Positions 1-16,670 of a stretch of 64,000 bases of DNA are shown piece by piece. The translations under genes were made by a program, and so were the position numbers. The first letter of the stretch is position 1; every line of letters starts with the position of its first letter. The notes under the pieces were generated by a model. That model did not search any database. It was not told the DNA's origin and worked only from the letters and a program-made list of their open reading frames with translations. The stretch is from a virus, in the IMG/VR virus record IMGVR_UViG_3300029319_009270, positions 1 through 64,000 of that record; one strand, 5' to 3'.

Positions 1-427
1 GCTCTTCAACAACTTCTTTAACGTAATCTTCGTATGGTTGAATTTGGATGACATCATAAACAGTAATTTCATCTTTGTTGTGATACATCCAATTCATGCA
101 TGCGTCTTTGATTACTGTATCCAACTCTTTAAAATCATTCAAGATGTCTATGTCTAATTCATAGGCTACAACTTGCTTTGGAAAATCATCAGCACCAAAT
201 CGGTCAGTCGGTTCGAAACCACCAAGTTCTGCAAATTCTCCAGCTGAGGCCCGTGCTTCTTCATCGTCTGTCATTGCCAGCATCTTTATGTTCTTTTTTT
301 GTTTTTCATTGTAATATAAGTCTTCAAGCGGGTCACTTAATGGCTCCTCTACAGGGATAACAAACTCACCATCCCTTCTAACTGAAGCTTCTATCAATCT
401 TCTTAATTGTCTTTTTGTTATTTTCAT
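1..427 (-). CDS. capsid-targeting-helix protein, 3' end missing
   Basis: The reading frame is open from the ATG at 427 to the window edge (142 codons), so the C-terminus lies outside. It begins MKITKRQLRRLIEAS, the basic amphipathic helix that opens the next seven genes too; L-I-E fits the T4 prohead protease consensus [LI]-x-E. Residues after the helix (VEEPLSDPLED, later FPKQVVAYELDIDILND) parallel IEEPLEDPRDF and LSKQMRMYDAGLDLINDPE of the upstream neighbour, so the two are paralogs. The start lies one base after that neighbour's stop. Inferred role: internal head protein packaged in the capsid and perhaps injected. No enzymatic motif seen. Confidence 0.75.
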   Translation of the reverse strand, partial: MKITKRQLRRLIEASVRRDGEFVIPVEEPLSDPLEDLYYNEKQKKNIKMLAMTDDEEARASAGEFAELGGFEPTDRFGADDFPKQVVAYELDIDILNDFKELDTVIKDACMNWMYHNKDEITVYDVIQIQPYEDYVKEVVEE

Positions 428-428
428 A

Positions 429-1538
429 CTAGTATCCTAATTTCGCCATATTAACTAAGCCTAAAAGATAATTTACATCACCTGGGTCTGCTTCGTCATA
501 TTCATTATTTTTTAACGCTAATTGTAAATCTTCAAGAATCGGTAATACGCCTCGCGAATCTTTAAAACCTCTTTTTGCACCAGATAACTCATTCAGCAAT
601 AACAGCAACGTGGTATCTGGTTTAGGCAACCAGATTGCATCTTTATACATAACTAATTCTTCTAATGCTCTGCTAATCTCATCAGAATTTGCAACTTCAG
701 CTATTAGCTTTCTCAATTGTCTTTTTGTTATTTTCATTTTGCCTTCTTTTATCATCGACATGTCTTGCTTAGGATTATGCTTCTGAATAGTTGTAGTGAA
801 TATATCGTACATCGGTTGCATCGCTTTGTCGTAAATGTGTTGAGCAATTGCAGGACCAAAATTAATGCGCTCTTCATAGCTTCTTCTCTTGAATAGATTA
901 TAAGCTTTCTTAAGTGTTGCAACACGTTGTTTGTCACTCGATTGAGCAGCTTTAAATTTTTCGTAAATCAGTCCGCGGACTTCGTCCATGATAGAGTTAA
1001 CTATGTCAATGTGAAGAGCAGGTGTGTCTACTGCGATATCAATGTTAAAATTAGCGTCCTTGGGCATTTTGTCGTACCAGTTTGGATCTCCATTTAAATA
1101 TAACTGAAAACCTCCTGGTCCTTCTGGATACTTATAACCAGCTTTTAAAATATCAGCAAGGTCAATTGCAAAAGCTTCTCGACGTCTAGGGTTGAAATAG
1201 CGATCAACTGCTGCATCAATTATCTGATCAATTTCCGGATCATTAATTAAATCCAAACCTGCGTCGTACATTCTCATCTGCTTGCTTAGAGTATCCGCGC
1301 TGAAACGTCCTGAACTGGGGAAACCTAAAGTGTCGGCTATGTTGTCTGCTTGTGCCGACGTCTCCAGATCATCTGATCCCGCTAAACCAAAGAGTTTTTC
1401 TTTGTTTACATCTGATAGGTCAAAATCAAAGTCTCGTGGATCTTCAAGCGGTTCTTCTATAGGAGCAACATAGCCAGGACTTCGTTTTATAACTGAAGAT
1501 TCTAATAATTTTCTTAATTGTCTTCTTGTTAATTTCAT
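429..1538 (-). CDS. double capsid-targeting-helix protein (possible polyprotein)
   Basis: 369 residues. The N-terminus MKLTRRQLRKLLESS is the array's shared helix, and a second complete copy, MKITKRQLRKLIAEV, starts at residue 268. The first part (16-260) is paralogous to the partial downstream gene; the 85 residues after the second copy are unrelated to it. The internal ATG at 737 is preceded by AAGG at short spacing, so it may also be an internal translation start. Either the protein is a fusion of two capsid-targeted proteins with two protease sites, or it makes two products. Function unknown. It overlaps the upstream gene by 4 bases, suggesting translational coupling. Confidence 0.8.
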   Translation of the reverse strand: MKLTRRQLRKLLESSVIKRSPGYVAPIEEPLEDPRDFDFDLSDVNKEKLFGLAGSDDLETSAQADNIADTLGFPSSGRFSADTLSKQMRMYDAGLDLINDPEIDQIIDAAVDRYFNPRRREAFAIDLADILKAGYKYPEGPGGFQLYLNGDPNWYDKMPKDANFNIDIAVDTPALHIDIVNSIMDEVRGLIYEKFKAAQSSDKQRVATLKKAYNLFKRRSYEERINFGPAIAQHIYDKAMQPMYDIFTTTIQKHNPKQDMSMIKEGKMKITKRQLRKLIAEVANSDEISRALEELVMYKDAIWLPKPDTTLLLLLNELSGAKRGFKDSRGVLPILEDLQLALKNNEYDEADPGDVNYLLGLVNMAKLGY

Positions 1539-2053
1539 ATTTCATCGCCGGGATGACGTGCTTGCAAGCCAGGATAATTATTCCAAACATGGTCGTACAT
1601 ATCTACACCATATATTTCGTATGGCTCTACATTTAAAATGTATTGTAATAGTGGCTCTCTTATTTCATTCGGATTTAATGGGTCATAAGGCGGATACGCA
1701 CTGTAGTACAAAATTGTCATTTGCTTAGAGAGTTCCTCATCAGTTATCGGACCCATCGTATCGCCCGGGTCGTCTCGATCAATGTCTAAGCCTAAGTCTC
1801 TGGCTTGCATTATCAAGCTCATAAAATAAGGAATAGCTCGATCCAGTGCCTCTATCATTGACGCCTTAGTAGTGCCACCATAAAACTTTTGAAGAAGATT
1901 ACCATTTTCATTCTTATAAATTTTAATATAGCCTACATCACCGCCACTTGAGTCTCCATGATCGACTGGCGGAAAAGTACCCCCGAGCGATCTGTCACCG
2001 CCCATATAGAATTCACGAATTAGCTTTCTCAACTGGGCACTTGTTAATTTCAT
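1535..2053 (-). CDS. capsid-targeting-helix protein
   Basis: 172 residues starting MKLTSAQLRKLIREF, with I-R-E matching the prohead-protease form. A short central stretch, DEELSKQMTILYY, resembles TLSKQMRMYDA of the 369-residue neighbour, suggesting distant homology within the array. The rest is acidic and rich in Asp, Pro and Tyr, with no catalytic motif or membrane segment. The stop is separated by a single base from the start of the preceding gene's product, and it overlaps the next gene by 4 bases, so the array is probably one operon. Likely an internal virion protein by analogy; function unknown. Confidence 0.75.
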   Translation of the reverse strand: MKLTSAQLRKLIREFYMGGDRSLGGTFPPVDHGDSSGGDVGYIKIYKNENGNLLQKFYGGTTKASMIEALDRAIPYFMSLIMQARDLGLDIDRDDPGDTMGPITDEELSKQMTILYYSAYPPYDPLNPNEIREPLLQYILNVEPYEIYGVDMYDHVWNNYPGLQARHPGDEI

Positions 2054-2054
2054 A

Positions 2055-2810
2055 TCAAACTACCATGTCCGGATCAAGCGTGTAGCCGTTGCGTTCTAAT
2101 CCTATTACGATTATCTTTTTGTTCGGATCCTCGACGCCTTCTGGTGATCTGGCACCTTGATCTTTAAAATATGCTGCGACGGCAGCTGTTTTATTAGGTA
2201 GGTGAATCATCCCATTCTCCAAAGCCTCAGTATAAAACACTGTTGCTGATTTCGACAGATATATTATCGCGTGCAACAGTGCTCTTTCGATCAAATAATA
2301 TTGATTTTTCCTTCCATGTACCTCTTGCATTAATGCATCTAAGTCTTTGACAATTTCAGAAATACTGTTTTCGTTTAACCCAGCTATAGAATTTCCTGCC
2401 ATGACAGAGTCTTCGCCGCGCCAATTTTTTCCGTATCTAGGTGTTGCAATTTGAAGGCCATCGCCCCTGCCTACTGTTATAAATATGTCTTGATCTATTA
2501 CATTCTCCAGTGCTTCATTATGGCCATTTTCACTTAACACATCCGCTACCTTGTCCTTATTCAAATTAACGGGTGTTTTCTGAAATATTTTCAATGCGTT
2601 ATCATAAGCATCAAGATACGTATCAGTAGTGCCTTCTGGGTCTAGCATAGAATCGAGGAGCATATAGTAAGTCGACATGTCGTCAGGATCTTTAAACATT
2701 TCGAGTGTTTCTAGTTGATCAGGTGACAGCCTACTTAAATCTAGACGTGCTCTTGGATCTTCCATTGATTCTCTAATTAATTTTGTCAATTGCCGTCTTG
2801 TTATTTTCAC
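2055..2810 (-). CDS. capsid-targeting-helix protein (GTG start)
   Basis: An upstream ATG at 2828 is in frame, but AAGGAG lies 6 bases before a GTG at 2810, and starting there gives MKITRRQLTKLIRESM, exactly the array motif. I therefore choose 2810 (251 residues). The segment LDLSRLSPDQLETLEMF followed by YYMLLDSMLD parallels IASLSNEQQEMLYGI and FFSLLDTLTLD in the gene at 3680-4345, and C-terminal helices also align, so these two are paralogs. Predicted internal head protein; no enzyme motif seen. Confidence 0.75.
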   Translation of the reverse strand: MKITRRQLTKLIRESMEDPRARLDLSRLSPDQLETLEMFKDPDDMSTYYMLLDSMLDPEGTTDTYLDAYDNALKIFQKTPVNLNKDKVADVLSENGHNEALENVIDQDIFITVGRGDGLQIATPRYGKNWRGEDSVMAGNSIAGLNENSISEIVKDLDALMQEVHGRKNQYYLIERALLHAIIYLSKSATVFYTEALENGMIHLPNKTAAVAAYFKDQGARSPEGVEDPNKKIIVIGLERNGYTLDPDMVV

Positions 2811-2829
2811 AAGAAACTCCTTGCTCATT

Positions 2830-3612
2830 TTACGCGAGATCGTTCATGATTTCTACATACATGTGTTGAATATACTTACCTAACCCTTCCCTCGCATTAT
2901 CTTCAATGCCTTGAAGATTGGCTAAATTTGTCAAGGACCACTCCATATCTTCAATCAATCCATCCATAAATCTATTGTTGGTGATCAGTGATTCCTTGTT
3001 GTCACGGTAGGCAGCAAGGTTCTGTAATGTTGCTTTGAACTTTAAAAGATCTTCACCAGCTGAACTTAAGAATTCATCGCCATCTTCATCATACTCCACA
3101 TATCTATAGGGATCTGGAACGTGCACAAATTCTGTTCCTCTTCCTCTTAGTATTGCATCAAGCAGACTCTGTGGTGTATGTGATTTACCCATCGCTTCTG
3201 CCACTAGTGAACGCAGATTGCTTCTAGTAATAATGCTTTCATTAGTAAGATTTTCATCTCCGCTAACAGGCATCTCGCTAAAACCCCAGCTTTCTTCTAA
3301 CTCTTGCTTAAGTGACTGCAATCTTTCAATTTCTTCAAGAGTTTTTAAATAAGTCTCGAAAGCTTCTGCTTCTACAAGTCGACCTTCCTCTTCCTCTTCA
3401 TTTCTGATATCGTGTTCATATCGACCATATGTCATTGGTTCAAAGTCTTCAATCCCTATTCCACTGGACGGATCTCCAAAATCTGAACCTGCTAATGATC
3501 GAACTTCGCCAGGAGACTTGTATTCCTTGTCGTATCTGTCACGCATCGGATCTCGCTTGTGAGCCATTTCTTTTAGAACTAGATGTGTTAATTGTTTTTT
3601 TGTTATTTTCAT
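2830..3612 (-). CDS. capsid-targeting-helix protein with second internal copy
   Basis: 260 residues. Starts MKITKKQLTHLVLKEM; L-K-E fits the protease form. A second, degenerate copy, IITRSNLRSLVAEAM, lies at residues 127-141 and has no ATG of its own, so it is part of the same polypeptide. Between them is a charged, Glu-rich segment; after the second copy comes a different, mostly helical domain of about 120 residues. This repeats the two-module layout of the genes at 429-1538 and 38728-39447. AAGGTGAAACA precedes the start, and it is the first gene of its block, after a 67-base AT-rich gap. Confidence 0.75.
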   Translation of the reverse strand: MKITKKQLTHLVLKEMAHKRDPMRDRYDKEYKSPGEVRSLAGSDFGDPSSGIGIEDFEPMTYGRYEHDIRNEEEEEGRLVEAEAFETYLKTLEEIERLQSLKQELEESWGFSEMPVSGDENLTNESIITRSNLRSLVAEAMGKSHTPQSLLDAILRGRGTEFVHVPDPYRYVEYDEDGDEFLSSAGEDLLKFKATLQNLAAYRDNKESLITNNRFMDGLIEDMEWSLTNLANLQGIEDNAREGLGKYIQHMYVEIMNDLA

Positions 3613-3679
3613 TGTTTCACCTTAAAGTATCTGTAATATATAATTATCTAAATAGTAAATATATTCTAATAAATTACCT

Positions 3680-4345
3680 TTAACTAGTTTTTAATTCTAC
3701 GTAGTAATTTGGGTTGTAATCACTGTATTCCCTTACATATTCTAATATTTTACGTTCTATCTCAATTGTGCTCTTATTAGAATATTCAGCCAGTTTATTC
3801 ATTATGTCTTCAAGTTCTTCTTGGTCCGGCCCCATAGTGCTAAAAGGTCCTCTTCGGCCGGTTACAGTGATAGGACGACGTGCTCTTAGCGAGTAAATAG
3901 ACAACAACTGCGGATTGTCAAGGGCGTCAATCTGGTTTGCCTGTATCTTATCATAAAGAGCATTATGATCTTCTCTAGATATGTTATCATCTATCTTCAA
4001 AAACAATACAATTCCTTGCTCTGCTAAGAGAGTTGTGATTAAGACATCATACATAAAAACGTCTTCTTTCTTAAGCATGCTCATACCAGGTATAGAATTC
4101 TCAAAACCAGCGGGTGACATGAAATATTCATAAGAATCAAAACTGTCATCATCTAACGTTAACGTGTCTAGTAACGAGAAAAACTGGGGAATATCACCTG
4201 ACGCTCTAATTCCATACAACATCTCTTGCTGTTCGTTACTAAGGGAAGCTATTCGCGCATCGATATCTTTAGACAAACTATCACCTACTTGGTCTTCAAT
4301 GGCTTCTCTAATCAATCTTCTTAATTGCTGGCTCTCTATTTTCAT
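3680..4345 (-). CDS. capsid-targeting-helix protein
   Basis: 221 residues opening MKIESQQLRRLIREAI. Paralogous to the gene at 2055-2810: both have a short helix-rich domain centred on a Gln-Leu-(Glu/Met)-x-Leu segment, followed by (F/Y)xxLLDxxLD and similar C-terminal helices with ITV and IERxxLxxxxxY. No catalytic or membrane motif. It starts 2 bases after the stop of the preceding gene. Predicted internal virion protein. Confidence 0.75.
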   Translation of the reverse strand: MKIESQQLRRLIREAIEDQVGDSLSKDIDARIASLSNEQQEMLYGIRASGDIPQFFSLLDTLTLDDDSFDSYEYFMSPAGFENSIPGMSMLKKEDVFMYDVLITTLLAEQGIVLFLKIDDNISREDHNALYDKIQANQIDALDNPQLLSIYSLRARRPITVTGRRGPFSTMGPDQEELEDIMNKLAEYSNKSTIEIERKILEYVREYSDYNPNYYVELKTS

Positions 4346-4347
4346 AT

Positions 4348-4968
4348 TTAATTGTTTCCAAATAAATTTTCAATTTCATCAGAAAGATCTCCAAAGTCCG
4401 GACCTAGCATATTTTTAATCTGCACTAATTTTAACAGATACAGACCAATAAGCCACTCCTCTAAGACATAACCCATACCTCCGGAATGTTCCCCTGCCAA
4501 AGCAGAAGAATATGACATTCCTAATCCGCCCTCAGCTGTCTGGTATATTTCCTCACCTTGCATACCTTCATTGCTTATTAGATTGACAATCTCTCCGCTA
4601 CTCATTCCTAAAGAAAGGGACGGATAATTTGGTAACTGATCTAATAATGCAGGGAAAAATGACATACACGGCTTCTCTTTTGTCCCACCGTACATAGAAT
4701 TGTCAGCGATTGCATATATCAAATTCTGTATGTCACCACCTTCTCCCCGGTGTCTTGCTACAAAAGGACCAAGCACAGCATCAACTGCTGAATGGCTTGA
4801 GGCAAAGATATTGAAAATATCTAAATCTGCGGCAAAAGCAAGCTCTTGTGCTTGTATCAAACCTTCAATTCCGGATGCCATCAACCCGGCGATTTTTTGC
4901 TCAGCGGTTCTAGGTTCATCAATAGCCTCAGCAATTATCTGCCTTAATTGTTTTTTTGTTATTTTCAT
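4348..4968 (-). CDS. capsid-targeting-helix protein, Ala/Gly-rich
   Basis: 206 residues opening MKITKKQLRQIIAEAI, with I-A-E then Ala, a textbook match to the T4 gp21 site form. The body is hydrophobic and rich in Ala, Gly, Ser and Met, unlike its acidic neighbours, with several potential amphipathic helices (residues about 25-60 and 150-195). That composition would suit a protein that contacts membrane or coats other proteins, but this is speculation. It overlaps the preceding gene by 4 bases (ATGA). Confidence 0.75.
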   Translation of the reverse strand: MKITKKQLRQIIAEAIDEPRTAEQKIAGLMASGIEGLIQAQELAFAADLDIFNIFASSHSAVDAVLGPFVARHRGEGGDIQNLIYAIADNSMYGGTKEKPCMSFFPALLDQLPNYPSLSLGMSSGEIVNLISNEGMQGEEIYQTAEGGLGMSYSSALAGEHSGGMGYVLEEWLIGLYLLKLVQIKNMLGPDFGDLSDEIENLFGNN

Positions 4969-5417
4969 TTTTGCCTCATCATCGCGATTACATTTTGCAC
5001 CTGGTTTTGCATCGCAGTAGCATTTTCTAAACTATCAAGTGGTAGCGGTGTAACGTTTTGGTTTAGTAAATTTAAGAAGCGTATACCTTCTGCCTCTTTT
5101 GCAATAATCAAAGACGGAGGATTAACTAAAATCGCTTCGCCATCAGGCAAGATCATGTAAAAATCGATAAACTTTTTTAATCCACTATACCCTCTGGGTG
5201 TCTTATAGGGCACACCTTTGGTCATAAAAAAGTTACCCACCCTATGTTTGTCTTTTTTAATTGTTGCACTTGTTTCTTGTCCTGTAGCGAGAGCTTGCAT
5301 TGATGGTGGTAAAGATGCCACATCCTCTTCGTACTGTTCATCAGAAACAGTCTTAACCCTAAACTCGTGTGCAGCTTCTGCGATTAATTGTCTTAATTGT
5401 CTTCTTGTTATTTTCAT
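4965..5417 (-). CDS. capsid-targeting-helix protein
   Basis: 150 residues from the ATG at 5417, chosen over an in-frame TTG two codons upstream because AGAGGG lies about 7 bases before the ATG and the product then begins MKITRRQLRQLIAEAA. After the helix comes a small alpha/beta-looking domain (residues 50-130) containing VGNFFMTKGVPYKT and MILPDGEAILVNPPSL. It is the first gene of the array in transcription order. No function recognised; inferred head protein. Confidence 0.75.
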   Translation of the reverse strand: MKITRRQLRQLIAEAAHEFRVKTVSDEQYEEDVASLPPSMQALATGQETSATIKKDKHRVGNFFMTKGVPYKTPRGYSGLKKFIDFYMILPDGEAILVNPPSLIIAKEAEGIRFLNLLNQNVTPLPLDSLENATAMQNQVQNVIAMMRQK

Positions 5418-5436
5418 TGTCAACCCTCTTATGTAA

Positions 5437-6408
5437 TTATCGCTTTAAACCTAAAACTTCTAAACCATTTTGAGTTGCTATGTTAAATAAAACATTTTCA
5501 TCATATATTTTACAAGATTCTAAGAGCATTCTTAATTCAAACATCATGTTACCGTCTGAATAAGGTTTGTATACATCATTTATATTGTCACTTCCAATTG
5601 CGACAATTAAATCGTGTTGAATTAATTCGTCAACAGGCGTAACTGCATTATGAAAAGGCATAAGTGTTTCACTTCTTTGATGATCAATCCAAGCAGAGGG
5701 GCATGTTATGAAGCTTAAACCCGCATCTTTTGAGATCCTGTAAACTTCTTCTCTGTAACTTTTTTGATGACAGGCTAGCGAAATTGAATGGACAGCTGTT
5801 ACTTTCCCTTCAAGCCCATGTTGAATTGTTTTTCTTGCTAGCAGTTCTGTTTCCTTTTCTGTTGGTATGTTTAACTGATCAACATGAACATGAACTCTCT
5901 TATCATACTCTTTTGCCCAATTCATTATCTTATCTAAATGTTCTGATTCCTGACCTTTGTCAGCTCCTGGTAAAGATCCTATAATATCAATGTAAGGTAA
6001 AAAATTTCTTATTAAAACTTCTTGAGTTTGTCCTAATACGCCTTTTAAAGTTTGACTTGCAATTACTAACCTAATATCATCTACCTCTTTAGCCAATTCT
6101 CTTGCAGATATTATGGCTTTCGATGAAACAATGTCGTCTATGTCAATGAATGAGCAGACATGGCTAACGCCTTTACCAGATTGATCATGGAGAGCTTTTC
6201 TGATTCTTTCCTTATATTCCCTATAAGAAGTAATTCTTTTAATCTGATCAACTAACTGCCACTTTTCTTTTAAGTGTTTGTATTGATCATTCAAACAAAA
6301 AAAATGAGCTGTATTAGCTCTATCTAAGTGTGCATGTGCATTAACGAATCCGCCTGATCCAACTATTCTCTTTCTTAAGTCTTCAACTGACACAGTATAA
6401 ATCTCCAT
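5437..6408 (-). CDS. amidohydrolase, cytosine-deaminase-like
   Basis: 323 residues with the amidohydrolase-superfamily pattern of CodA/AtzC-type deaminases: HAHLD at 25-29 (metal ligands), HVHVDQ ending near 178, AVHS with His near 207, and GSDN with Asp near 274, followed by a DVYKPYSDGNMM segment like the DPWYPLGTANML of E. coli CodA. These enzymes hydrolyse an amino group from a heterocyclic ring such as cytosine. One oddity is that CodA's catalytic Glu in HCDE is Gln here (HVDQ), so substrate or activity may differ. It is shorter than CodA (about 427), lacking the flanking beta-sandwich. Located between the virion-gene array and the tail-fibre-like gene. Confidence 0.75.
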   Translation of the reverse strand: MEIYTVSVEDLRKRIVGSGGFVNAHAHLDRANTAHFFCLNDQYKHLKEKWQLVDQIKRITSYREYKERIRKALHDQSGKGVSHVCSFIDIDDIVSSKAIISARELAKEVDDIRLVIASQTLKGVLGQTQEVLIRNFLPYIDIIGSLPGADKGQESEHLDKIMNWAKEYDKRVHVHVDQLNIPTEKETELLARKTIQHGLEGKVTAVHSISLACHQKSYREEVYRISKDAGLSFITCPSAWIDHQRSETLMPFHNAVTPVDELIQHDLIVAIGSDNINDVYKPYSDGNMMFELRMLLESCKIYDENVLFNIATQNGLEVLGLKR

Positions 6409-6465
6409 TAAAATTGTTTAATTTGATATAATTATAAACAAGCAAATCAAAATTATGGAGAAGTT

Positions 6466-8430
6466 ATGCCAAGAATAAGAAATATGGGGACAGCAACCAT
6501 GAAATTCGGCGAAGGAATCGTCGTGTCAGGAAGTGCTGCGAACAAGAACAATACATCTTCTGATTTCACACTAATCGTCTCGGGCAGTTCTCTCTTAGAG
6601 GACGACTTAAGACTTAGAGACACGTTTGGCAGATTATATTTTGGCCAGACAAACAACGACATCTACCTGCGGACCACCGACGGTGACACGCTTGGCATTA
6701 ATGCACCCGCGACAGCATGGTCAATTGGTGATAGCAGTGGAAACACAAAGGATTCCGATCAGATTAGAATAAACAAAGGCGGGCAAGAAATATTTAAAAT
6801 TGGAAAAGACGGATTTGAGTGGAATAGGGTTGGGCTTATAGTTGGTACGACAGGAAGCTTTAATGTTAACGGTCTCTCAAAATTTAAAAAGGGTCTTGTT
6901 GCAACAGGAAGTGCCGGTGAAATGTCTTCTGCAGATTCAGAGTATGCAGCATTTCATTCAAGCGGTTCAATAATGCTTTCATCAGAATCTGACACTACGG
7001 GCATGGATATTGAAATTCAAACAAAAAGACCTAGACTTGTTCTAAAAAGTCATGCAGGCAGTTCGTACAATTCAGCAGTTGTTTTTGACAAGTTCAATGA
7101 TTCTGGTGACGGTAGTATATCAGCTGTTGCTTCTGGCATGACGTTAAGTCAAATTGATGCTAACGGTTTTGACGGTTCAGCGTTAAGAAATGCTACAAGT
7201 ATAAAATCAGTAGTCGATGGGACACCAGGTAGTGGTGACATGCCCGGACGTCTAGAATTTAGAACTTCACCTGACGGATCTGCATCTGTTGTTACGAGAA
7301 TGACAATTAAGAATGATGGAAAAGTTGGGATTGGAACTACTGATCCGGACTATGAACTGGATGTTGCGGGTGATATTGGGCTAGCTGAATACATTTATCA
7401 TAGAAATGATGATAACACTTATATAAGATTTCAAGATGATGATATCAATCTGCAAGTTGGTGGCAGATCTATGATCAAAATGAGTGAAGGTTCAATAGAT
7501 CAGGTTTTAATAATGTCTGGCGGATCCGCAGCTAGTCCCGATGTTAAGACTTCTACAGACACTAACTTTTTTGTATCAGGATCTATCGATTCAATAGATT
7601 CATCTACTCAAGGCACATCTGTTTTTGGTGGTGATGTTGTCATTAGTGGGAGCACAAAAATAAAAGATGTGCTACGAATCAGTGAATACATTACACATGA
7701 AACTGACACGAACACTTACATTAGATTTAACGGTGGTGACACTATTCAAATGTATGCTGGTGGGATAGACTTTATACAATTAAGAGAGCACAGTGAGGAT
7801 CTCTTGATGTTAAACCCTAGTTCTAGAGAGATGGATCTACACTTTTTTCATGATGACACAAGTAACAACGCGCGTGTATTCTTGCTAAGTGAAGGAGCTA
7901 GCTCAACCCCTACAAACGCGACAGATCTTAGTTTTTTCGTTTCGGGATCAATTGGTTCAAGGGGTGGGTCTGCAAAGGGAACAGCAGTATTTGATGGTGA
8001 TGTTGTAATTTCAGGAAGTCTTTACACAAAACAACGTCATGTTAACAGCGCAAAATTTAGCAGCACAGATAATTCACAACGATACGTCCGATGGGATGCA
8101 GCAGGTAGTAATGGTTCTCCAGGTGTAAATAATAAGTTTATAGCTCCGGCTGATGGGCGTCTTTTATTTGTTACAGTACGTTGTACTTCAGCTGCTAACG
8201 GCACTAATGTCGCATTTCATAAAGCATCAGATGGAACTGCTAATTTAAACACAACTGCAATAGAAACAGTAGGCGTTGATATTGATTCAAGTAACACTTC
8301 TTTTCAAGTACAATTCACGTCAACATCTAATTTTAGTGCCGGTGATATTTTAGGAATATCTATAAATCCAACCAGCACACCTAATGATGTCAACATAACT
8401 TGCGTTTGGGAACTAGACTTTGTTAGTTAA
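6466..8430 (+). CDS. tail fibre or spike-like virion protein
   Basis: 654 residues on the plus strand, with GGAGAAGTT before the ATG. The sequence is rich in Ser, Gly, Asp and beta-strand repeats. VGIGTTDPDYELDVAGD near residues 285-303 is the motif common in phage tail-fibre and spike proteins, often near an intramolecular chaperone. Two internal repeats run about 306-400 and 405-520, each with NTYIRF, then FFVSGSI and GTxVFxGDVVISGS. The last 100 residues look like a compact beta-sandwich and could bind the receptor. It is convergent with the metalloprotease gene, the two stop codons overlapping. Confidence 0.7.
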   Translation: MPRIRNMGTATMKFGEGIVVSGSAANKNNTSSDFTLIVSGSSLLEDDLRLRDTFGRLYFGQTNNDIYLRTTDGDTLGINAPATAWSIGDSSGNTKDSDQIRINKGGQEIFKIGKDGFEWNRVGLIVGTTGSFNVNGLSKFKKGLVATGSAGEMSSADSEYAAFHSSGSIMLSSESDTTGMDIEIQTKRPRLVLKSHAGSSYNSAVVFDKFNDSGDGSISAVASGMTLSQIDANGFDGSALRNATSIKSVVDGTPGSGDMPGRLEFRTSPDGSASVVTRMTIKNDGKVGIGTTDPDYELDVAGDIGLAEYIYHRNDDNTYIRFQDDDINLQVGGRSMIKMSEGSIDQVLIMSGGSAASPDVKTSTDTNFFVSGSIDSIDSSTQGTSVFGGDVVISGSTKIKDVLRISEYITHETDTNTYIRFNGGDTIQMYAGGIDFIQLREHSEDLLMLNPSSREMDLHFFHDDTSNNARVFLLSEGASSTPTNATDLSFFVSGSIGSRGGSAKGTAVFDGDVVISGSLYTKQRHVNSAKFSSTDNSQRYVRWDAAGSNGSPGVNNKFIAPADGRLLFVTVRCTSAANGTNVAFHKASDGTANLNTTAIETVGVDIDSSNTSFQVQFTSTSNFSAGDILGISINPTSTPNDVNITCVWELDFVS

Positions 8431-8945
8431 GGTAGCCAAAATTCCCTTCCCATCTTATGATAGAGGGGATGCATGATATGACCCGGTTCATCAATGTGGG
8501 TAAACCCTAGGGCATGCCCTAATTCATGCTCGTTGATTAAATCTAAATTAAACGAACCTGATTGATAATAAATGATTGCGCCTTTCATCTCGAAATATCT
8601 AGAATATCTTTTGGTGCTAGCAATTGTATTAGCAGGTAGAGAACGAGTTCGCCTCAATATTATGAAACCTTCAAGCCAGCTGTTATCACAAACAGAATTT
8701 GGCGGATTATGCTCATAAAAACCTATTGGGTAACCGTTGTCTTCCCAATAATTTATAGCTCTTTTAATTTGATATTCATTAAAGTCAGGGCCATAACAAT
8801 TAATAATCGCCGGTGGGTGCTTCCACGTATAGGGCTCAAACATTGAAGCTTCATATCGATACTTCATTGCCAGTCCTAAAAGAAAACCTATTATTAAACT
8901 AGCTAAAAGTATAAGAAGTACTCGCGAGACTTTCACGTCCCGCAT
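8427..8945 (-). CDS. membrane-anchored matrixin-like zinc metalloprotease
   Basis: About 172 residues. A hydrophobic segment near the N-terminus (about 8-27) is probably a signal anchor. The zinc motif HELGHALGFTH, 11 residues, matches metzincin HExxHxxGxxH, and IMHP eight residues later is the Met-turn, so this is a matrixin-type peptidase. In such enzymes the Glu is the catalytic base. There is no obvious propeptide. The start is uncertain: a GTG at 8951 and an ATG at 8945 are both in frame, overlapping the end of the lipoprotein gene. Likely exported; possible roles are envelope protein cleavage or lysis. A second member lies at 59454-59900. Confidence 0.75.
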   Translation of the reverse strand: MRDVKVSRVLLILLASLIIGFLLGLAMKYRYEASMFEPYTWKHPPAIINCYGPDFNEYQIKRAINYWEDNGYPIGFYEHNPPNSVCDNSWLEGFIILRRTRSLPANTIASTKRYSRYFEMKGAIIYYQSGSFNLDLINEHELGHALGFTHIDEPGHIMHPLYHKMGREFWLP

Positions 8946-10492
8946 CCCCACGATGCATATTCGATATCAATGGTTTGTCCTTCTGATGGTTCATATCCGT
9001 GTTCAAAAATAACAGCATTTTGATCTTCATCATACTCCCAATCTGTTGTTTGTTGTCCGTTAACATAAACCTCGATTGTATTTTCAATGGGATCGTCCTC
9101 AGTGAGTTTAAACACTCTTCTTGCTGTTACCTCCCCGGCTAAGTCTTGCAACTGTACACCCCAATCAGATGCACAAATCGAGTACCAGTTTCCGCCATAG
9201 TGATCTATTAGATCCCAATATCCTTCCCCAGCCTGGGCTGTTCTAAAGTATCCGTTATGTTGATATTGACATCCGGCTGGATAATCACCTATGACACCAT
9301 ACGGAATGAAATCACCAGCTGGTTTAACTGCATCAAAAAAAGTAAGATAAGATGACCACCCGGGAGATGAATGATCAGGTTCATCTGAAACAAAAATTAC
9401 TATAAGTTTTGCTGATTCTCTAAAGAAGCTACCCCCAGGGCCAGCAGCATTCGGGTCACTAAGACTGTTATATGCCATCTGAATTCCTTTTTCAATTCCG
9501 GAACCGTAAGTTCCTAACAAAACTAAACTTGATAAAGCAGCTTCAGGATCTGGGTGTGTTGTATCAATTATTGTTGAAAATGTAGATCGGTCTGTAGTGA
9601 TTACAGACATTCTATAATCTGCTCCTGTCGTGGAAAAAGCATTCATAAAAGAACCAATATTTGTCGATAGATTTGTCTGAAACGGCATCATCGATCCAGA
9701 GTTATCAATGACCCACAAAACATCTAAAACAGGTATTTCATCTTGCTGCCATTGATCTGTATGCCATTGTTCAACGTCACCGTCGCCATACTGCACAACT
9801 GTCTGTTCAGGATTTAAAGGGTCATCTCCTTTTATTGTTATTGAACTTTCATCTCTCCCAATATCTGATGGAATATATGAAACTAAAAAGTCTATTTCTT
9901 GTCCTGGAATTAAGACCCAAGGAGGCTCAGGAAGACTCCCGTATTCCATTGCAATATCAGCAGGTTGTGAAACCATCTGAATTACTGATTCTACAGTTAA
10001 ATCCAAATTTCCTTCGTTTCTTATTGTTACTCTTTCTTCATTGTCACAGCCAATTGATATATCTCCATAATCAAAAATGTCTGGGTCGACGGTCATAACT
10101 GGCGCATCCCCATATCCTTCAAGCGTAATAACTGACACCGGTTCATCTTCGTCATCTGATATTATTTCTATATAAGCACCATTTGACTCATATGTCGCAG
10201 GGGTATACCCAACTTCAAATTCTAATAACTCGCCTGGTTCAACGACATACAATTCTTCACTAGCGTTTAAAGTAAACCTAGAATTACCAGAAACTAATTC
10301 GGGAGAAAAGATTTTAAGTTCTTTGTCTCCCGTATTAATAATTTGAAAAGTATCTTGTCCTGATTCATGGCCTGATTTTAAGTGGCCAAAATTAATATGT
10401 TCAGGATGAACCAATATTTCTTGTTGTCGTTTTTCTATGCCCGCAACTAAGTAATCATTGCAAGCTAGTAAACTTAATAAAAATAAAACCAT
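8933..10492 (-). CDS. lipoprotein with ASH-type repeats and VWA domain
   Basis: 519 residues from the ATG at 10492, preceded by AAGGGGG. A signal peptide ends in LLAC (Cys 11), a type II lipobox. Residues about 28-230 hold two immunoglobulin-like modules of the choice-of-anchor-D/ASH type (FGHLKSG...NTGDKEL; YGDISIG...NEGNLDL). A von Willebrand factor A domain follows, with the MIDAS motif DNSGSM near 263 and further acidic loops. This layout is common in surface proteins of myxobacteria-like organisms and unusual in a phage. It may have come from a host and act at the infected-cell envelope; virion attachment is an alternative. Confidence 0.75.
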   Translation of the reverse strand: MVLFLLSLLACNDYLVAGIEKRQQEILVHPEHINFGHLKSGHESGQDTFQIINTGDKELKIFSPELVSGNSRFTLNASEELYVVEPGELLEFEVGYTPATYESNGAYIEIISDDEDEPVSVITLEGYGDAPVMTVDPDIFDYGDISIGCDNEERVTIRNEGNLDLTVESVIQMVSQPADIAMEYGSLPEPPWVLIPGQEIDFLVSYIPSDIGRDESSITIKGDDPLNPEQTVVQYGDGDVEQWHTDQWQQDEIPVLDVLWVIDNSGSMMPFQTNLSTNIGSFMNAFSTTGADYRMSVITTDRSTFSTIIDTTHPDPEAALSSLVLLGTYGSGIEKGIQMAYNSLSDPNAAGPGGSFFRESAKLIVIFVSDEPDHSSPGWSSYLTFFDAVKPAGDFIPYGVIGDYPAGCQYQHNGYFRTAQAGEGYWDLIDHYGGNWYSICASDWGVQLQDLAGEVTARRVFKLTEDDPIENTIEVYVNGQQTTDWEYDEDQNAVIFEHGYEPSEGQTIDIEYASWGCGT

Positions 10493-10498
10493 CAAACA

Positions 10499-10521
10499 CC
10501 CCCTTATAATAAATAAAAGGG
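10499..10521 (-). promoter_or_regulatory. hairpin overlapping ribosome binding site
   Basis: On the minus strand CCCTTTTA and TATAAGGG form a stem (one T-T mismatch) around a short AT loop. The 3' arm runs into the AAGGGGG ribosome binding site of the VWA lipoprotein gene, so folding would hide that site. It could also be a weak terminator of the gene at 10543-10839, but there is no T-run. Confidence 0.35.
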
Positions 10522-10542
10522 ATTCGGGGTTTTATCTAAATT

Positions 10543-10839
10543 TTATTGATTCGACAATCTTTTTGCAGCTTTAATGTATCCCAGTGCTTGATCAAGTGAT
10601 GCTGACTGTTGTTTTATTTCTTTAACATTTCTCGCAATTCCAGCAGAACGTTCTTCGATGTTAGCTAATCTTGAAAGCGGAGCATCTATTCCTCGTGCTT
10701 CTAATTCATTAACTGACACGTCTATCATCTCCTTTAGCGTCATTAGTTGCGATTTGAGATTGACCATGGTCGACTCAACACGCCCCCTTGTGTGGCTAAG
10801 TTCTTCTGCGATTTGCATTATTTTATCTAAGTGATCCAT
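10543..10839 (-). CDS. coiled-coil protein
   Basis: 98 residues, almost wholly alpha-helical with heptad-like hydrophobic spacing and no Cys, membrane segment or catalytic motif. AGGC lies about 7 bases before the ATG. It is divergent from thyX, with 60 bases between the two starts. No family recognised; the length and composition would fit a small oligomerising or methyl-accepting-like helix, but nothing more can be said. Confidence 0.55.
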   Translation of the reverse strand: MDHLDKIMQIAEELSHTRGRVESTMVNLKSQLMTLKEMIDVSVNELEARGIDAPLSRLANIEERSAGIARNVKEIKQQSASLDQALGYIKAAKRLSNQ

Positions 10840-10853
10840 ACTTGCGCCTATAT

Positions 10854-10883
10854 TTGTAATTGTTTTGTTGTATTATATACAAT
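10854..10883 (+). promoter_or_regulatory. candidate sigma70-like promoter for thyX
   Basis: TTGTAA at 10854-10859 and TACAAT at 10878-10883 are separated by 18 bases, in the divergent gap upstream of thyX and about 17 bases before its ATG. The region is AT-rich, so chance similarity is possible. Confidence 0.35.
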
Positions 10884-10899
10884 ACGTTCAGAGGTGTTT

Positions 10900-11604
10900 A
10901 TGGAAAAGAAAATCTATTTATATGCAGACAATATTGGATCTGTTGAATATGTAAGTCACATGGGTAAAGATATTACCATCGTCAATAGTGCAAGAGTTTC
11001 GTTTGGAAAGCATAAGGAGAGTATGGATGAAAAAGACAGAAAACTTATTAAATACCTCATCAAACATAGACACACGTCCACGCTGGAACACAATCTTGTT
11101 ACATATCGTTTTGTGGTACCTTTGTTTGTGCGTAGTCAGCACCACCGTCATAGAACTTGGTCTTATAATGAAATTAGTCGTAGATATACTGATGAAAATT
11201 TACGATTTTATGAGCCAGTAAGTTTTAGAACACAACACAAATCAAATCGACAAGCAAGTAATTTAGATAAAATTAATCCTGTCATATACCCAGACTGGGA
11301 TGATCCAGAAAGCGGTTACAAAGCAGATCAAATTATACAAATGCATCACAAAACATCTGTCACGTTATACAATGATTTGATGAAACAAGGCGTTTGTAGG
11401 GAACAAGCGCGTGGAGTTTTACCTCAAAATCTATACACAGAATATTATGGGACCGTCAATCTTAACAACTTGCTTAAATTTATTGACTTAAGAACCCATG
11501 AGGGTGCACAGTGGGAAATACAAAAAGTTGCAGAAGCTTGCTTAGAAATAGCTACTGACTTATGGCCTGAAACTGTTAATGCATATAAATTAATTAGACA
11601 ATAA
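10900..11604 (+). CDS. thyX: flavin-dependent thymidylate synthase ThyX
   Basis: 234 residues from the ATG at 10900, preceded by GAGGTGTTT; an upstream in-frame ATG at 10831 gives an unlikely leader. The ThyX signature RHRTWSYNEISRRY lies at 83-96, including the substrate-binding RHR and the conserved Ser and Tyr. The C-terminal half carries CREQARGVLPQNLYTEYYGT and RTHEGAQWEI, also typical. The enzyme makes dTMP from dUMP using methylene-tetrahydrofolate, FAD and NADPH. One of only two sizable plus-strand genes here; it converges on the next gene with an 11-base overlap. It should supply dTMP for the AT-rich genome together with the dCMP deaminase. Confidence 0.93.
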   Translation: MEKKIYLYADNIGSVEYVSHMGKDITIVNSARVSFGKHKESMDEKDRKLIKYLIKHRHTSTLEHNLVTYRFVVPLFVRSQHHRHRTWSYNEISRRYTDENLRFYEPVSFRTQHKSNRQASNLDKINPVIYPDWDDPESGYKADQIIQMHHKTSVTLYNDLMKQGVCREQARGVLPQNLYTEYYGTVNLNNLLKFIDLRTHEGAQWEIQKVAEACLEIATDLWPETVNAYKLIRQ

Positions 11605-12856
11605 TTAATCTTTCTATTAAAGCCTTCAATTGTCTTAACGTAATACTTACGATTCCTTCGTTAACTGATTCTGCCCTGGGTTTTGCTCTCCGAGCTCTAC
11701 CAATGATCTGATTTGCCATAGCAAAAGCACCGGTTATTTTATATATCTTACCGCCCTTTTCAAAAACAACGCCTTCAAGAGACGATGCTACATTTTCTAT
11801 ATTGCCAAGTTTTGCTAACTGCCTATCAACGAGCTTGCCCATTTTTTCATCACCTGATTCTGCTAATGATTCTAGATATGAAATACTTTCTTCTAACTCT
11901 TCTCGTATGCTCTGAACAGCAGCATCATGATCGACAACAAAAAAGCTCTTAATACCTCTAAGCACTTCTATCGCAAAATCGTTAATAATGTTTTCAAGAG
12001 GTCTCAGAACTACACCAATTACTTTTTTAGCGTTTACCTTTGTGCAGTATTTTGATATCTTTTTAGACATTTCTTTTGTCTTTCCGTATTCTTTTTTAAT
12101 ATCCCTCAATTCAAGTCCGCCGGGTTCCTTAAAAACATTCCTTATTATTTCATCGCATGCATTAGCTGGGATATCTTCTGACAGCATTAAATTTTTATAA
12201 TATATTTTGCATAGACTCTTAATTGTGCCGTCCATACCCACTGGTTCTGCCAGTTTTTGTATTTTACTAACCACTGCTTGGTGTGCTTTTCCATCCGCGA
12301 TATTATTGAGAGGAATAACTTGGGGCCCATATACGCTCCAAGCTTCTCCGTCAATTTCAACTTGAGCACTGTCCAAAGCAGATCGCAGACGCTCGAAAGA
12401 CTCAGAGGTTTCACCTCCGTCAATTGATATTAAGTTATGAAGCACAACGTACGATGCACCATAAATTATAATATTAGGGTTGCCTGGATACATTATCTCC
12501 ATGTTAACGTAGCTTTTTCCGCCATCAAATATATCAATGACATCTTCCTGATTAAGGGAATTAATTGCTGCACCAATGGCTCTAAATCCTTTCATAAAAG
12601 CATCCTCAGCAGGATGTCCTTTCCACTTCGCCGCATAATCACTAGTCGTCATGCCGCCTTTTTTAATATCTGTTGGATTACGTGCAGTTCTTATTTCTCC
12701 TAAAGAATTAACAGTTAAAAATAGGTTTTGCCCGTCTACCTTTTCAACAACTTCAATGTCTGCTGACGCAACTTGATTTAATATTGACACTAACTCATTA
12801 AAAGTTAAATCTAAATCTTCATGAAGATGTGCCATGTGTCCGGCCGCTCCTCCCAT
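11594..12856 (-). CDS. nucleotidyltransferase/ligase-like protein (DUF6267-like)
   Basis: 420 residues, with GGAG 7 bases before the ATG. Residues 8-50 (HLHEDLDLTF...VVEKVDGQNLFLTV) contain a K-x-D-G-x-N motif resembling motif I of the ATP-dependent ligase/nucleotidyltransferase superfamily. The C-terminal EGVVFEKGGKIYKITGAFAMANQ resembles motifs IV-V. The overall pattern recalls a cyanophage protein family (DUF6267) of unknown function. A helical region (about 250-350) separates the two parts. The last residues, SITLRQLKALIERLI, look like the capsid-targeting helix but at the C-terminus. Role unproven: nucleic acid end repair or a virion enzyme. Confidence 0.6.
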   Translation of the reverse strand: MGGAAGHMAHLHEDLDLTFNELVSILNQVASADIEVVEKVDGQNLFLTVNSLGEIRTARNPTDIKKGGMTTSDYAAKWKGHPAEDAFMKGFRAIGAAINSLNQEDVIDIFDGGKSYVNMEIMYPGNPNIIIYGASYVVLHNLISIDGGETSESFERLRSALDSAQVEIDGEAWSVYGPQVIPLNNIADGKAHQAVVSKIQKLAEPVGMDGTIKSLCKIYYKNLMLSEDIPANACDEIIRNVFKEPGGLELRDIKKEYGKTKEMSKKISKYCTKVNAKKVIGVVLRPLENIINDFAIEVLRGIKSFFVVDHDAAVQSIREELEESISYLESLAESGDEKMGKLVDRQLAKLGNIENVASSLEGVVFEKGGKIYKITGAFAMANQIIGRARRAKPRAESVNEGIVSITLRQLKALIERLIIV

Positions 12857-12857
12857 T

Positions 12858-13124
12858 TTATTCTCCTTTTACTTTAACCAAATAGCATATATTAATTATA
12901 TGCTTACCGTGATTATTACCAATTGTTGCTAGCCAAGCTTTGCAATCACTACCACCATCAGAACCCATGAAATATTCATCGATGCTATATACAAGATAAA
13001 TCTCTTCATCTTCATCATGATCTAAGTCAACAATATTGTGATATTTGACTATATCCCCAACAGATGCTAGTTCCTTATTATAGTAAAACTTTGGTGGGCT
13101 ACTTTGGTTTAAATGAAAGGACAT
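12858..13124 (-). CDS. small hypothetical protein
   Basis: About 88 residues from the ATG at 13124; a longer frame reaches 13193 but would overlap the upstream gene by about 95 bases and has a Lys/Arg/Asn-rich leader typical of noncoding translation. The body has SH3-barrel-like strands (SVGDIVKYHNIVD, EIYLVYSIDEYFM) as in several other short proteins in this window. Function unknown. Confidence 0.5.
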   Translation of the reverse strand: MSFHLNQSSPPKFYYNKELASVGDIVKYHNIVDLDHDEDEEIYLVYSIDEYFMGSDGGSDCKAWLATIGNNHGKHIINICYLVKVKGE

Positions 13125-13572
13125 TTTTGTTTTCTTCAGGATATTCCTCGGATTCGCTTTCTTCTTCTCCTTGTGGTTCCTGGGGTTCTTCAACAGTTTC
13201 GCCGTACCTTTCTTTCACTTCGTCTAACCCTACCCCCATCAAAAAACTTTCAATTCGATATAATGCCTCTTTCTCGCTTTCTTCAACAGTCAACTTGTTG
13301 TTGACCATAAACATCTCATCAAAATAAGTCCAAGAATCATTTTTCCAAAACTCAATATAAGGGTTGATAATCAATTCATCATTGTTATCTTGATCGTATA
13401 TTATTCCAATTTTTGCCCTCATTGAGATAGGGTGTGTCATACCCTCAAGCATCCAAGAAAATATCCAAATTGAAGTTTGCGCACTAATTTCAGCATCAAA
13501 CTGTTCTGAATATTGTTTATCGCTTTGCCTATATAGCAACTTTCTATTAAATATCGCTTGCTCCTTTTCCAT
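13099..13572 (-). CDS. hypothetical acidic protein
   Basis: 157 residues from the ATG at 13572, which has AAGG 8 bases upstream; an in-frame ATG at 13674 lacks this and overlaps the previous gene. Residues 1-105 look like an alpha/beta domain; the C-terminus is a Glu/Pro/Ser-rich tail (about 115-150). No family recognised. Confidence 0.55.
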   Translation of the reverse strand: MEKEQAIFNRKLLYRQSDKQYSEQFDAEISAQTSIWIFSWMLEGMTHPISMRAKIGIIYDQDNNDELIINPYIEFWKNDSWTYFDEMFMVNNKLTVEESEKEALYRIESFLMGVGLDEVKERYGETVEEPQEPQGEEESESEEYPEENKNVLSFKPK

Positions 13573-13600
13573 GTCATTACCTTCTTTTTTTATTCTTTTT

Positions 13601-13804
13601 TTATTCGTAAAGTGGAATATTATTGATAATACAGATAAGTAAGTCGCCCTCTTTACCCCATTTCCATGTGTCATTATTTGCTCTGTAAAATATTTTATTG
13701 CCTTGCAACTCTATAACTTTATCACCACGAGTGTTCCAACAATTATAACCATCTGTATGTAAATTGAAACATTCTGCGTACTTTTTAATATAACTTTTTT
13801 GCAT
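13601..13804 (-). CDS. small hypothetical protein
   Basis: 67 residues, with beta-strand-like alternation and several Trp and Asn, overlapping the preceding gene by 20 bases. No membrane segment or known motif. Confidence 0.45.
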   Translation of the reverse strand: MQKSYIKKYAECFNLHTDGYNCWNTRGDKVIELQGNKIFYRANNDTWKWGKEGDLLICIINNIPLYE

Positions 13805-14084
13805 TCTTTACTCGTTCCATAATTCTCTTATAGTATTCATCTGCATCATCATCTTCAAATGCTTTACTTATCTTAACGGGATTCTTGACAATCTCCTCCT
13901 TTTCCTCTTCTTCTGGATACTGATATTCAATTTCAGACTTACCAAGACCCATTAGAGGCTTTCTAGGCTTAATAACATGTCCTGCACCATGACCTTTGTG
14001 ACCACGAACACTCACAACATTTTTTGTTGTTGCCATGTCCATTTCTCTAATTAATTGTCTAAGCAGTTCTATTGTTTTTTTCAT
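13785..14084 (-). CDS. small protein with capsid-targeting-like N-terminus
   Basis: 99 residues opening MKKTIELLRQLIREM, a variant of the capsid-targeting helix ending in I-R-E. A His/Gly/Lys-rich stretch follows (RGHKGHGAGH at about 27-36), then an acidic middle and a basic C-terminus. AGAGGTATGTT precedes the ATG. A second ATG near residue 18 (MATTKNVV) would remove the helix; the upstream one is favoured by its ribosome binding site. Possibly another packaged protein. Confidence 0.55.
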   Translation of the reverse strand: MKKTIELLRQLIREMDMATTKNVVSVRGHKGHGAGHVIKPRKPLMGLGKSEIEYQYPEEEEKEEIVKNPVKISKAFEDDDADEYYKRIMERVKNAKKLY

Positions 14085-14098
14085 AACATACCTCTTTA

Positions 14099-14179
14099 TT
14101 AAGTATGTGCTTTATGATTTGATATCCCACAACAATTCATAAAAAAAGCAACGTAAATTAAAATCACCATGAATATCAT
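14099..14179 (-). CDS. possible 26-residue membrane peptide
   Basis: The ATG is one base after the stop of the nuclease-like gene (TAATATG), suggesting reinitiation. The product is hydrophobic for about 15 residues then Cys-Cys and a short polar tail. No clear ribosome binding site, so this could be chance. Confidence 0.3.
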   Translation of the reverse strand: MIFMVILIYVAFFMNCCGISNHKAHT

Positions 14180-14180
14180 A

Positions 14181-14963
14181 TTAGCTAGTAAGTTCGGATC
14201 GTCCCTTAAAACTTTCAAGCTTGTAAGAATATCTTGGGTCTGCTTCTTCCCACTTTTTAATTTTGTTTTTAAGCTCTTTAATCTTCTTATCATAAAAATC
14301 CTCAATTTTCTTTACACGAGAACCTGCCTCCTGTATTGTTCTATCAAAACATTTACTTATCATAACACTTGTGTCATAAGCACATTTTTCTTCAAATCCA
14401 GCTATTCGTTCTTTGTAACGTTCTATGTAAGTTTGATTCAGTGTAGTAAAGTCACCGTACAAAACATTACATTTTTTCATTGCATTCTTTTTATTCATTC
14501 TTGACTTTCCTCTAGATCCAGAGGCTGGCGGGTAATAGTCTTCTGGTGTCAATCCTTTAAAAAATAAAACACAGAATTCATCAAAAGAATCATTAGTCAA
14601 TATGAAAACATAATCTAAACTTTCCTTCTTACAAATCGTTTCCCAGTCTGTTTGAAGACTAAAAGATCTTTTCTTGCTTTTTGTCCTGCTGCCACTTGTT
14701 ATTTTGCATTCAAGCTCTGTTTCAATATCACCTATGTATATGTCAGGTTTTCCTGGCGCACCATCTTCAACAACCACATTATAAACTTTTCTCAAGGCAT
14801 TGGCTGTAGCTTTTTCTTGTGCAGTTGAAACTAAAGCGTTGCGTCTCCCTAAATTATCTCTTAAGTTTAAATCATGATTATTAAAAACTGTAGCCAAGTC
14901 GTTTTCAAATTTCTGGATATCGCCAAGAATGTTTTTAACAATTTTTCTGTTTAAATAAGTCAT
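14181..14963 (-). CDS. putative PD-(D/E)XK nuclease
   Basis: 260 residues. At about 70-92 the sequence GKPDIYIGDIETELECKIT fits the PD...(D/E)xK nuclease core: Pro-Asp, a short turn, then E-L-E-C-K ahead of a strand. The segment before it (ALRKVYNVVVEDGAPG) and DYVFILTND after it fit the alternating helix/strand fold of restriction-like endonucleases. The C-terminus (190-250) is a Lys/Glu-rich coiled coil. Start supported by AAAGGGAGC 6 bases upstream. It could degrade host DNA, act as a homing-like nuclease or process phage DNA. Confidence 0.5.
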   Translation of the reverse strand: MTYLNRKIVKNILGDIQKFENDLATVFNNHDLNLRDNLGRRNALVSTAQEKATANALRKVYNVVVEDGAPGKPDIYIGDIETELECKITSGSRTKSKKRSFSLQTDWETICKKESLDYVFILTNDSFDEFCVLFFKGLTPEDYYPPASGSRGKSRMNKKNAMKKCNVLYGDFTTLNQTYIERYKERIAGFEEKCAYDTSVMISKCFDRTIQEAGSRVKKIEDFYDKKIKELKNKIKKWEEADPRYSYKLESFKGRSELTS

Positions 14964-14997
14964 ATAGCTCCCTTTATATAATTTTATTATATTACAC

Positions 14998-15204
14998 TTA
15001 ATTTAAAATTGCATGAGTTATAAAAAAGTAAACACAGCCTGCACCAAAAATAACGTAAAGAAAAATTAGTGTATTGATTACGTAATCTAAAAACTTAAGA
15101 AATGTTACGACTTCTAGCTTATCCTCTTCAAGACCCATAGATTTAATCGTTAAAGCTTTCCAGATTCTCGCTGTGTAATTTTTAATGTTAGTATATGTTT
15201 TCAT
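14998..15204 (-). CDS. small membrane protein
   Basis: 68 residues: a basic N-terminal half and one or two hydrophobic segments (about 41-66). No family recognised; it might be a small inner-membrane protein used in lysis or exclusion. Confidence 0.5.
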   Translation of the reverse strand: MKTYTNIKNYTARIWKALTIKSMGLEEDKLEVVTFLKFLDYVINTLIFLYVIFGAGCVYFFITHAILN

Positions 15205-15207
15205 ATA

Positions 15208-16062: not shown

Positions 16063-16123
16063 ACCCTATATCTTCCTCCTACAATAATATGTATCATAAA
16101 AGTAAAAAAAGTAAAGGTGTATA

Positions 16124-16306: not shown

Positions 16307-16351
16307 GATTTTTTTTGCCTTTATTAACTTGTGCATCAGACATTTTTTATC

Positions 16352-16645: not shown

Positions 16646-16670
16646 ATAGCACTCTCCTTACAGGAAAATA

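Follow-up and report, generated by a model that had tools for sequence, protein, structure and literature searches.

An array of leader-bearing genes

The window analysed here, bases 1-64000 (64,000 nucleotides) of the 90,544-base IMG/VR virus record IMGVR_UViG_3300029319_009270 (G000, a phage fragment of about 90.5 kb), begins with eight consecutive, nearly gapless open reading frames (ORFs) on the minus strand (2-5417). Each opens with a shared leader, MK[IL]T(R/K)xQLRxLIxE, and the proteins, here called cargo, differ from one another once past it. An earlier note on this DNA had proposed that the leader is a capsid-targeting sequence (CTS) like that of the internal head proteins of phage T4, removed by the prohead protease after [LI]-x-E. 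The arrangement it described, eight adjacent genes that share the leader and then diverge, was confirmed and lies far beyond chance. Gene boundaries are simple ORF calls.

Gene 1 (2-427) carries MKITKRQLRRLIE at 389-427, with a predicted cut after Glu13. Because this gene is cut by the contig end, which is also the end of the record, the array may extend past base 1. Gene 2 (429-1538, 369 amino acids) has the leader MKLTRRQLRKLLE at 1500-1538 and a second complete leader, MKITKRQLRKLIAE, internally at 696-737 (amino acid 268), as would result from an in-frame fusion of two cargo proteins; a scan for relatives of its cargo found none. Gene 3 (1535-2053, 172 amino acids; leader MKLTSAQLRKLIRE at 2012-2053) has a relative in phage G018 (32% identity) that also bears a leader. 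The leader of gene 4 (2055-2828), VKITRRQLTKLIRE, starts from a GTG at 2810 (2769-2810). Gene 5 (2830-3612, 260 amino acids) opens with MKITKKQLTHLVLKE at 3568-3612, in the Glu15 register with Leu at position 13, and contains a weaker second leader, SIITRSNLRSLVAE, at 3196-3237 (amino acid 126). It is followed by gene 6 (3680-4345, 221 amino acids; MKIESQQLRRLIRE at 4304-4345) and gene 7 (4348-4968, 206 amino acids; MKITKKQLRQIIAE at 4927-4968), for whose body a pattern scan of IMG/VR returned no relative. Gene 8 (4965-5417, 150 amino acids; MKITRRQLRQLIAE at 5376-5417) has a relative in phage G001 (45% identity).

The internal leaders of genes 2 and 5 were not mentioned in the earlier note, nor were five further leader genes. 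Four of these are on the minus strand of the window: 13785-14084 (99 amino acids, MKKTIELLRQLIRE); 38728-39447 (239 amino acids, MKLNRKLLRKIILKE), with a second complete leader, MKITRTQLRKLIKE, at 39136-39177 (amino acid 91); 56867-58399 (510 amino acids, MFINKTTVRKIIRDVLRE, Glu18 register); and 59964-60929 (321 amino acids, MRITKRNLNLLIE, Glu13 register), which has leader-bearing relatives in G004 and G018. The fifth, G000:80427-81191, lies outside the window. A candidate ClpP-like (S14-type) protease gene, recognised by eye, lies directly downstream of a leader gene, from G000:80374 down to about 79.8 kb (L015:3-374 and the end of L014).

With the leaders removed, only one of the at least three paralogous pairs claimed earlier was detectable, that of genes 1 and 2 (34% over 109 amino acids, E ~1e-12), in which the body of gene 1 resembles the N-terminal part of gene 2. 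The body of gene 2 also gave a marginal 34-amino-acid match to that of 38728-39447 (E 0.016), and no other pairwise relation was detectable among the leader-free bodies of the window. A T4 late-promoter-like TATAAATA was sought upstream of the leader genes and none was found. Adjoining the array is an amidohydrolase-like (deaminase-like) gene (5437-6408, minus strand) that is kept in several large phages. In G011 the amidohydrolase (123188-124141) is likewise followed by a leader array (124163-128718), and the position beside the amidohydrolase is a conserved place.

The leader in related phages

Relatives were retrieved through the DnaE-type polymerase, gene 8, the flanking amidohydrolase and the protease described below. 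Leader genes were scored with a position-specific matrix, with shuffled genes as the control. The polymerase, a DnaE-type (Pol III alpha) replicative enzyme encoded at 46071-49583 on the minus strand, is 83% identical between the window's phage and both G006 and G011. The leader-bearing contigs are large, uncultured phages of bacteria, and the kind of contigs gives the impression that the group is marine. Cultured relatives were not found by megablast of window positions 1-20000 against phage records or by tblastn with a 25-amino-acid leader. The head regions of Flavobacterium phage immuto, Microcystis phage Mel-JY01 and Synechococcus phage S-SM2 lack such a leader, and its common spellings had no match in the literature searched.

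A genome-wide motif search, which the earlier note had suggested, revealed that the leader recurs, including in the head module of relatives. Nine related contigs hold 127 leader genes, whose bodies form 101 families. Leaders are present on up to 12% of genes: G018 (237 kb) has 30 among its 254 genes, G015 (273 kb) 28 of 328 and G011 (141 kb) 21 of 154. The shuffled expectation is 0.0-0.2 leader genes per genome in G015 and G018, the two largest leader-bearing contigs. In seven contigs 69/788 genes exceeded the matrix threshold, compared with 0.4 in shuffled genes. A degenerate DNA pattern for the 9-residue core MKITRxQLR matched 108 IMG/VR stretches and a permuted-order pattern matched 2. Internal leader matches were found in 13 proteins across all contigs, against 0.7 matches in shuffles. 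The leader is modular, occurring on about 100 different bodies and twice in some genes. It spans 13-19 residues, more in some phages, and is basic, with a mean charge of +3.9. In a longer class found in G015 (KEEYxxLxxxGL[IL]xE), a second [LI]-x-E, at 27, closes the leader.

The same helix is present at some C-termini. In window gene 19701-19964 (minus strand) the C-terminal ...ATLSE is followed by SHIRKIIREVLLDSNG and a stop, which places [LI]-x-E just before the helix. Counting G004:25811-26929, G011:133008-133232 and G011:139695-140975, the C-terminal helices of four proteins are directly preceded by LSE, LSE, LNE and ITE. C-terminal matches number 6, against 0.8 in shuffled sequences. This form is worth a look because both ends of T4 Alt are cleaved (PMC5694885); the few cases are suggestive of a mirrored cleavable tag.

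A predicted cleavage site in the leader

T4 gp21 cleaves after L/I-X-E (PMC9026906). [LI]-x-E with Glu at 13-19 is found in 122/125 distinct leaders. Leaders with Glu13 or Glu14 are little informative since positions 11 and 12 are hydrophobic anyway. Where Glu occurs only at 15, Leu is at position 13 in 12/12 leaders, whereas Leu or Ile is at position 13 in 12/75 leaders with Glu14 (Fisher p=1.5e-8, a guide and not an exact value because the leaders are partly related by descent). Among leaders lacking Glu13 and Glu14, 26/29 hold [LI]-x-E at 15-20, compared with 2.9 when residues are shuffled. Leu/Ile moves with Glu when the register shifts. A further 125 leaders were collected through their first nine residues only, without reference to the site. 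[LI]-x-E is present in 121 of them, including 7/7 informative cases, and V/M-x-E in the remaining four.

Cargo bodies avoid this motif. Their [LI]-x-E density is 0.69 times that of other genes of the same phages while other spacings range from 0.80 to 1.05, giving a ratio of ratios of 0.75 (95% confidence interval 0.64-0.86). The most depleted classes tested were LxE (0.68), IxE (0.71) and VxE (0.76); FxE, AxE and YxE showed no depletion.

One protein of G018 (232227-234350, L164) contains four units, each about 130-155 residues long and similar by descent to a single cargo, G018:231363-231884. A scan of the whole protein located [LI]-x-E at Glu 14 and 20 in the leader, at Glu 165, 296, 452 and 597 at the unit joints (LFE/H, LSE/H, LNE/H and LNE/H), at Glu 612 in a second leader-like stretch and at Glu 642 and 691 in the tail, and none within the four units. 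The leader of the single cargo closes with the matching VLSE/HRIKP. The repeat protein looks as expected of a polyprotein processed by a prohead protease, for which it is a candidate.

These results bear on whether the leader is cut at all. The helix might instead dock, uncut, to the head core, the scaffold or another virion part, with Glu belonging to the binding surface. Its hydrophobic moment is somewhat above that of shuffled leaders and conservation spans the whole helix, as such docking would have it. This reading leaves unexplained why Leu/Ile shifts along with the Glu register, why cargo avoids [LI]-x-E and why sites mark the joints between units of the repeat protein. We consider it improbable.

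Prohead protease and head genes of relatives

A prohead protease gene, whose identification the earlier note had recommended, was found in relatives. G001, G006 and G011 each encode Peptidase_S77 (PF03420, the T4 gp21 family; E ~1e-27), as do six more relatives, with matches between E 1e-24 and 1e-30. Of 15 contigs picked only for the leader, nine encode the gp21-type protease, among them every one of the seven that measure 150 kb or more, and the six negative contigs are fragments below 135 kb. A protease relative is encoded in 452 IMG/VR stretches. The columns of T4 His85, Ser140 and Asp168, which we take to be the catalytic triad of gp21, are invariant in the protease alignment.

Gene order in the relatives resembles that of T4: terminase, portal, protease, small core genes, scaffold and capsid protein. 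By eye, the scaffold of G011 (17151-18632) has long acidic stretches. The propeptide of the T4 capsid protein gp23 is 65 residues long (PMC9026906), and its cleavage-site residues L63 and E65 are invariant in an alignment with the capsid proteins of five relatives. Judged by this site, the same protease would mature the gp23-type capsid protein at [LI]-x-E. By combining a DnaE-type polymerase with T4-type head genes, the phage group differs from T4 itself.

The 11 kb behind the capsid gene hold more leader genes than expected in G006 (p 0.009), G011 (0.014), G015 (0.0017) and G018 (0.021). Phage G016 (289 kb) has the amidohydrolase and neither T4-type terminase, portal, protease and capsid genes nor any leader gene; therefore the leader goes with the head module and not with the amidohydrolase. 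Some leader genes are found at a distance from the head module, with replication or metabolism genes around them, as they might be if the leader targeted another phage-made place, such as the replication compartment or the tail, and its link with the head were incidental. The clusters behind the capsid gene in four genomes, the match between leader and protease specificity and the absence of the leader from G016 make such a destination very unlikely.

We give equally little credence to the idea that the shared start is a DNA-level element, such as a translation enhancer or recombination site, or the trace of plain duplication, without a function in the protein. In the window's phage, codons of shared residues differ in 0.42, against 0.58 expected if they were independent. 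Since they are somewhat more alike than expected, leader DNA was probably copied between genes. Nevertheless, codons differ widely though the protein pattern holds, leaders are also present inside genes, at places that require no start, and the pattern persists over many other contigs. Lastly, a secretion or membrane signal, for example a twin-arginine (TAT)-like signal peptide, is scarcely credible and was rejected, for although some leaders have twin Arg (reading TRRQLR), one of 121 proteins matches Pfam TAT_signal and one leader protein is a lysozyme, Arg-Arg is at positions 5-6 in only 26/125 leaders and there is no hydrophobic h-region (15-amino-acid hydropathy of at least 1.6 in 2/125).

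Cargo proteins

Most cargo bodies are without a known domain in Pfam and PHROG family searches. The window cargo gave no Pfam or PHROG match of note, and family searches identified none of the cargo as a T4 internal protein. The clear case is a phage lysozyme with a leader (gene 24664-25887), which belongs to the head module of G011 and lies behind its capsid gene. The leader-bearing G018 gene 38789-39460 is a probable HAD-type deoxyribonucleotidase; its Pfam score falls short of the cut-off, and the PHROG match was assigned to the gene by its sequence. HNH- and TseH-like matches of cargo were not relied on because they are below the cut-offs of these families. AlphaFold models of window cargo, for which the alignments held two sequences each, were weak (mean pLDDT 51 and 63), and a Foldseek comparison of the cargo models with the PDB returned nothing below E 0.1.

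Other genes of the window

An adenylosuccinate-synthetase-like gene at 49674-50669 (minus strand; phrog_1211, 2-aminooxy adenylosuccinate synthetase, E 7.7e-68) may be of the PurZ type, a hint of modified adenine in the phage DNA. A GroEL-type chaperonin is encoded at 27896-29485 (minus strand; phrog_5725, E 1e-150). By eye, the protein of 8933-10495 (minus strand) combines abnormal-spindle-like repeats with a von Willebrand A-like part. It adjoins a small metalloprotease-like protein (8427-8951, minus strand; NEHELGHALGFTH), also recognised by eye, and the pair looks host-derived or adhesive.

Discussion

We think it highly probable that the leader is a capsid-targeting propeptide that brings cargo to the prohead, is cut after [LI]-x-E and leaves the cargo in the head. 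The earlier interpretation was right in its core and is stronger than it was stated, being supported by the covariation of Leu/Ile with the Glu register, the avoidance of the site in cargo, the joints of the repeat protein and the site in the capsid protein. The basic amphipathic leader would bind the prohead core or scaffold and bring the attached protein into the prohead. A gp21-type prohead protease would then cut after the leader's [LI]-x-E, freeing a cargo that would stay in the head with the DNA. At least one gene would encode four cargo units joined by protease sites and cut apart in the head. In the CTS of the T4 internal protein IPIII, targeting depends mainly on residues 4 and 7 and processing on residues 8 and 10 (PMC9026906); since the two functions separate in this way, the leader may fairly be modelled as a docking part with a cleavage part behind it. 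The strong basic charge of the leader would suit an acidic partner, different from that of the T4 CTS.

If the leader targets proteins to the head and is then cut by the head protease, the virus probably brings varied, mostly unknown cargo to its host. By analogy with T4, at least some cargo proteins would be delivered into the host cell. T4 IPI, once injected, inhibits a restriction enzyme, and Alt is an ADP-ribosyltransferase (PMC9026906), and counter-defence and takeover functions may likewise be expected of the cargo.

Several observations weigh against a capsid-targeting propeptide. Cargo of G015 shows no site avoidance (1.14). The head module and gp21-type protease were not found in the window's own 90.5-kb fragment, so that a protease for the window's phage is assigned through relatives. 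G001 has the head module and only one recognised leader gene, and in other cases, as described above, leader genes are remote from that module. Finally, the leader is unrelated to the T4 CTS, basic (+3.9, against a charge of -1 for the IPIII CTS) and several residues longer.

Phage proteins injected with the DNA act first against host defences and are hard to recognise because they have no common sequence. If the leader is a packaging tag, the packaged proteins of a widespread group of large phages can be listed from sequence alone. The majority of the tagged proteins lack a known domain, which makes them candidates for novel roles in counter-defence and takeover. T4-type heads would then be loaded by a second kind of CTS, one that differs from the T4 CTS in sequence. 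More tentatively, and with slightly more doubt than belief, we suggest a general-purpose protein packaging system in which about 10% of genes bear an exchangeable, cleavable tag, some cargo is made as polyproteins that are separated into units only within the maturing head, a mirrored tag is used at the C-terminus and each virion delivers dozens of host-directed proteins. If this is true, an otherwise invisible injected proteome could be read from the genome sequence.

Comparison with known systems

The closest likeness is to T4, in which IPI, IPII, IPIII and Alt carry the same short N-terminal propeptide, ending in [LI]-x-E, on otherwise unrelated proteins with diverse cargo. As in T4, the relatives described here have a gp21-type protease and a gp23-type capsid protein with a matching cleavage site. 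The CTS is 10-20 residues long and is the only part conserved among T-even internal proteins (PMC9026906, PMC5694885, PMC3012670). IPII and IPIII start with MKTYQEFIAE/A (T4 record), and no similarity between leader and CTS was recognisable beyond MK...IAE/A. Because of this, the claim is that the leader works like the T4 CTS, not that the two share descent. T4 has a handful of such genes whereas up to about 30 leader genes per genome are found here, and unlike the T4 internal proteins, leaders are repeated inside genes and one gene holds multi-unit cargo. Variable cargo behind a conserved CTS, read as counter-defence, is also a property of the T-even internal-protein repertoire (PMC3012670, PMC9026906). 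The arrays described here are larger, lie beside an amidohydrolase gene and behind the capsid gene, and belong to uncultured phages.

Giant phages of the phiKZ/SPN3US type are likewise large and have many head or ejected proteins with propeptides cut after Glu (PMC5694885, PMC9026906). Their protease, however, belongs to MEROPS S80, recognises A/S-x-E and is only distantly related to gp21, whereas that of the relatives is S77. Their propeptides are mostly much longer (often more than 100 residues) and have no common short motif, in contrast to the short uniform leader found here. CTS-like delivery is known; a leader unrelated to that of T4, its far greater numbers and the multi-cargo genes are new.

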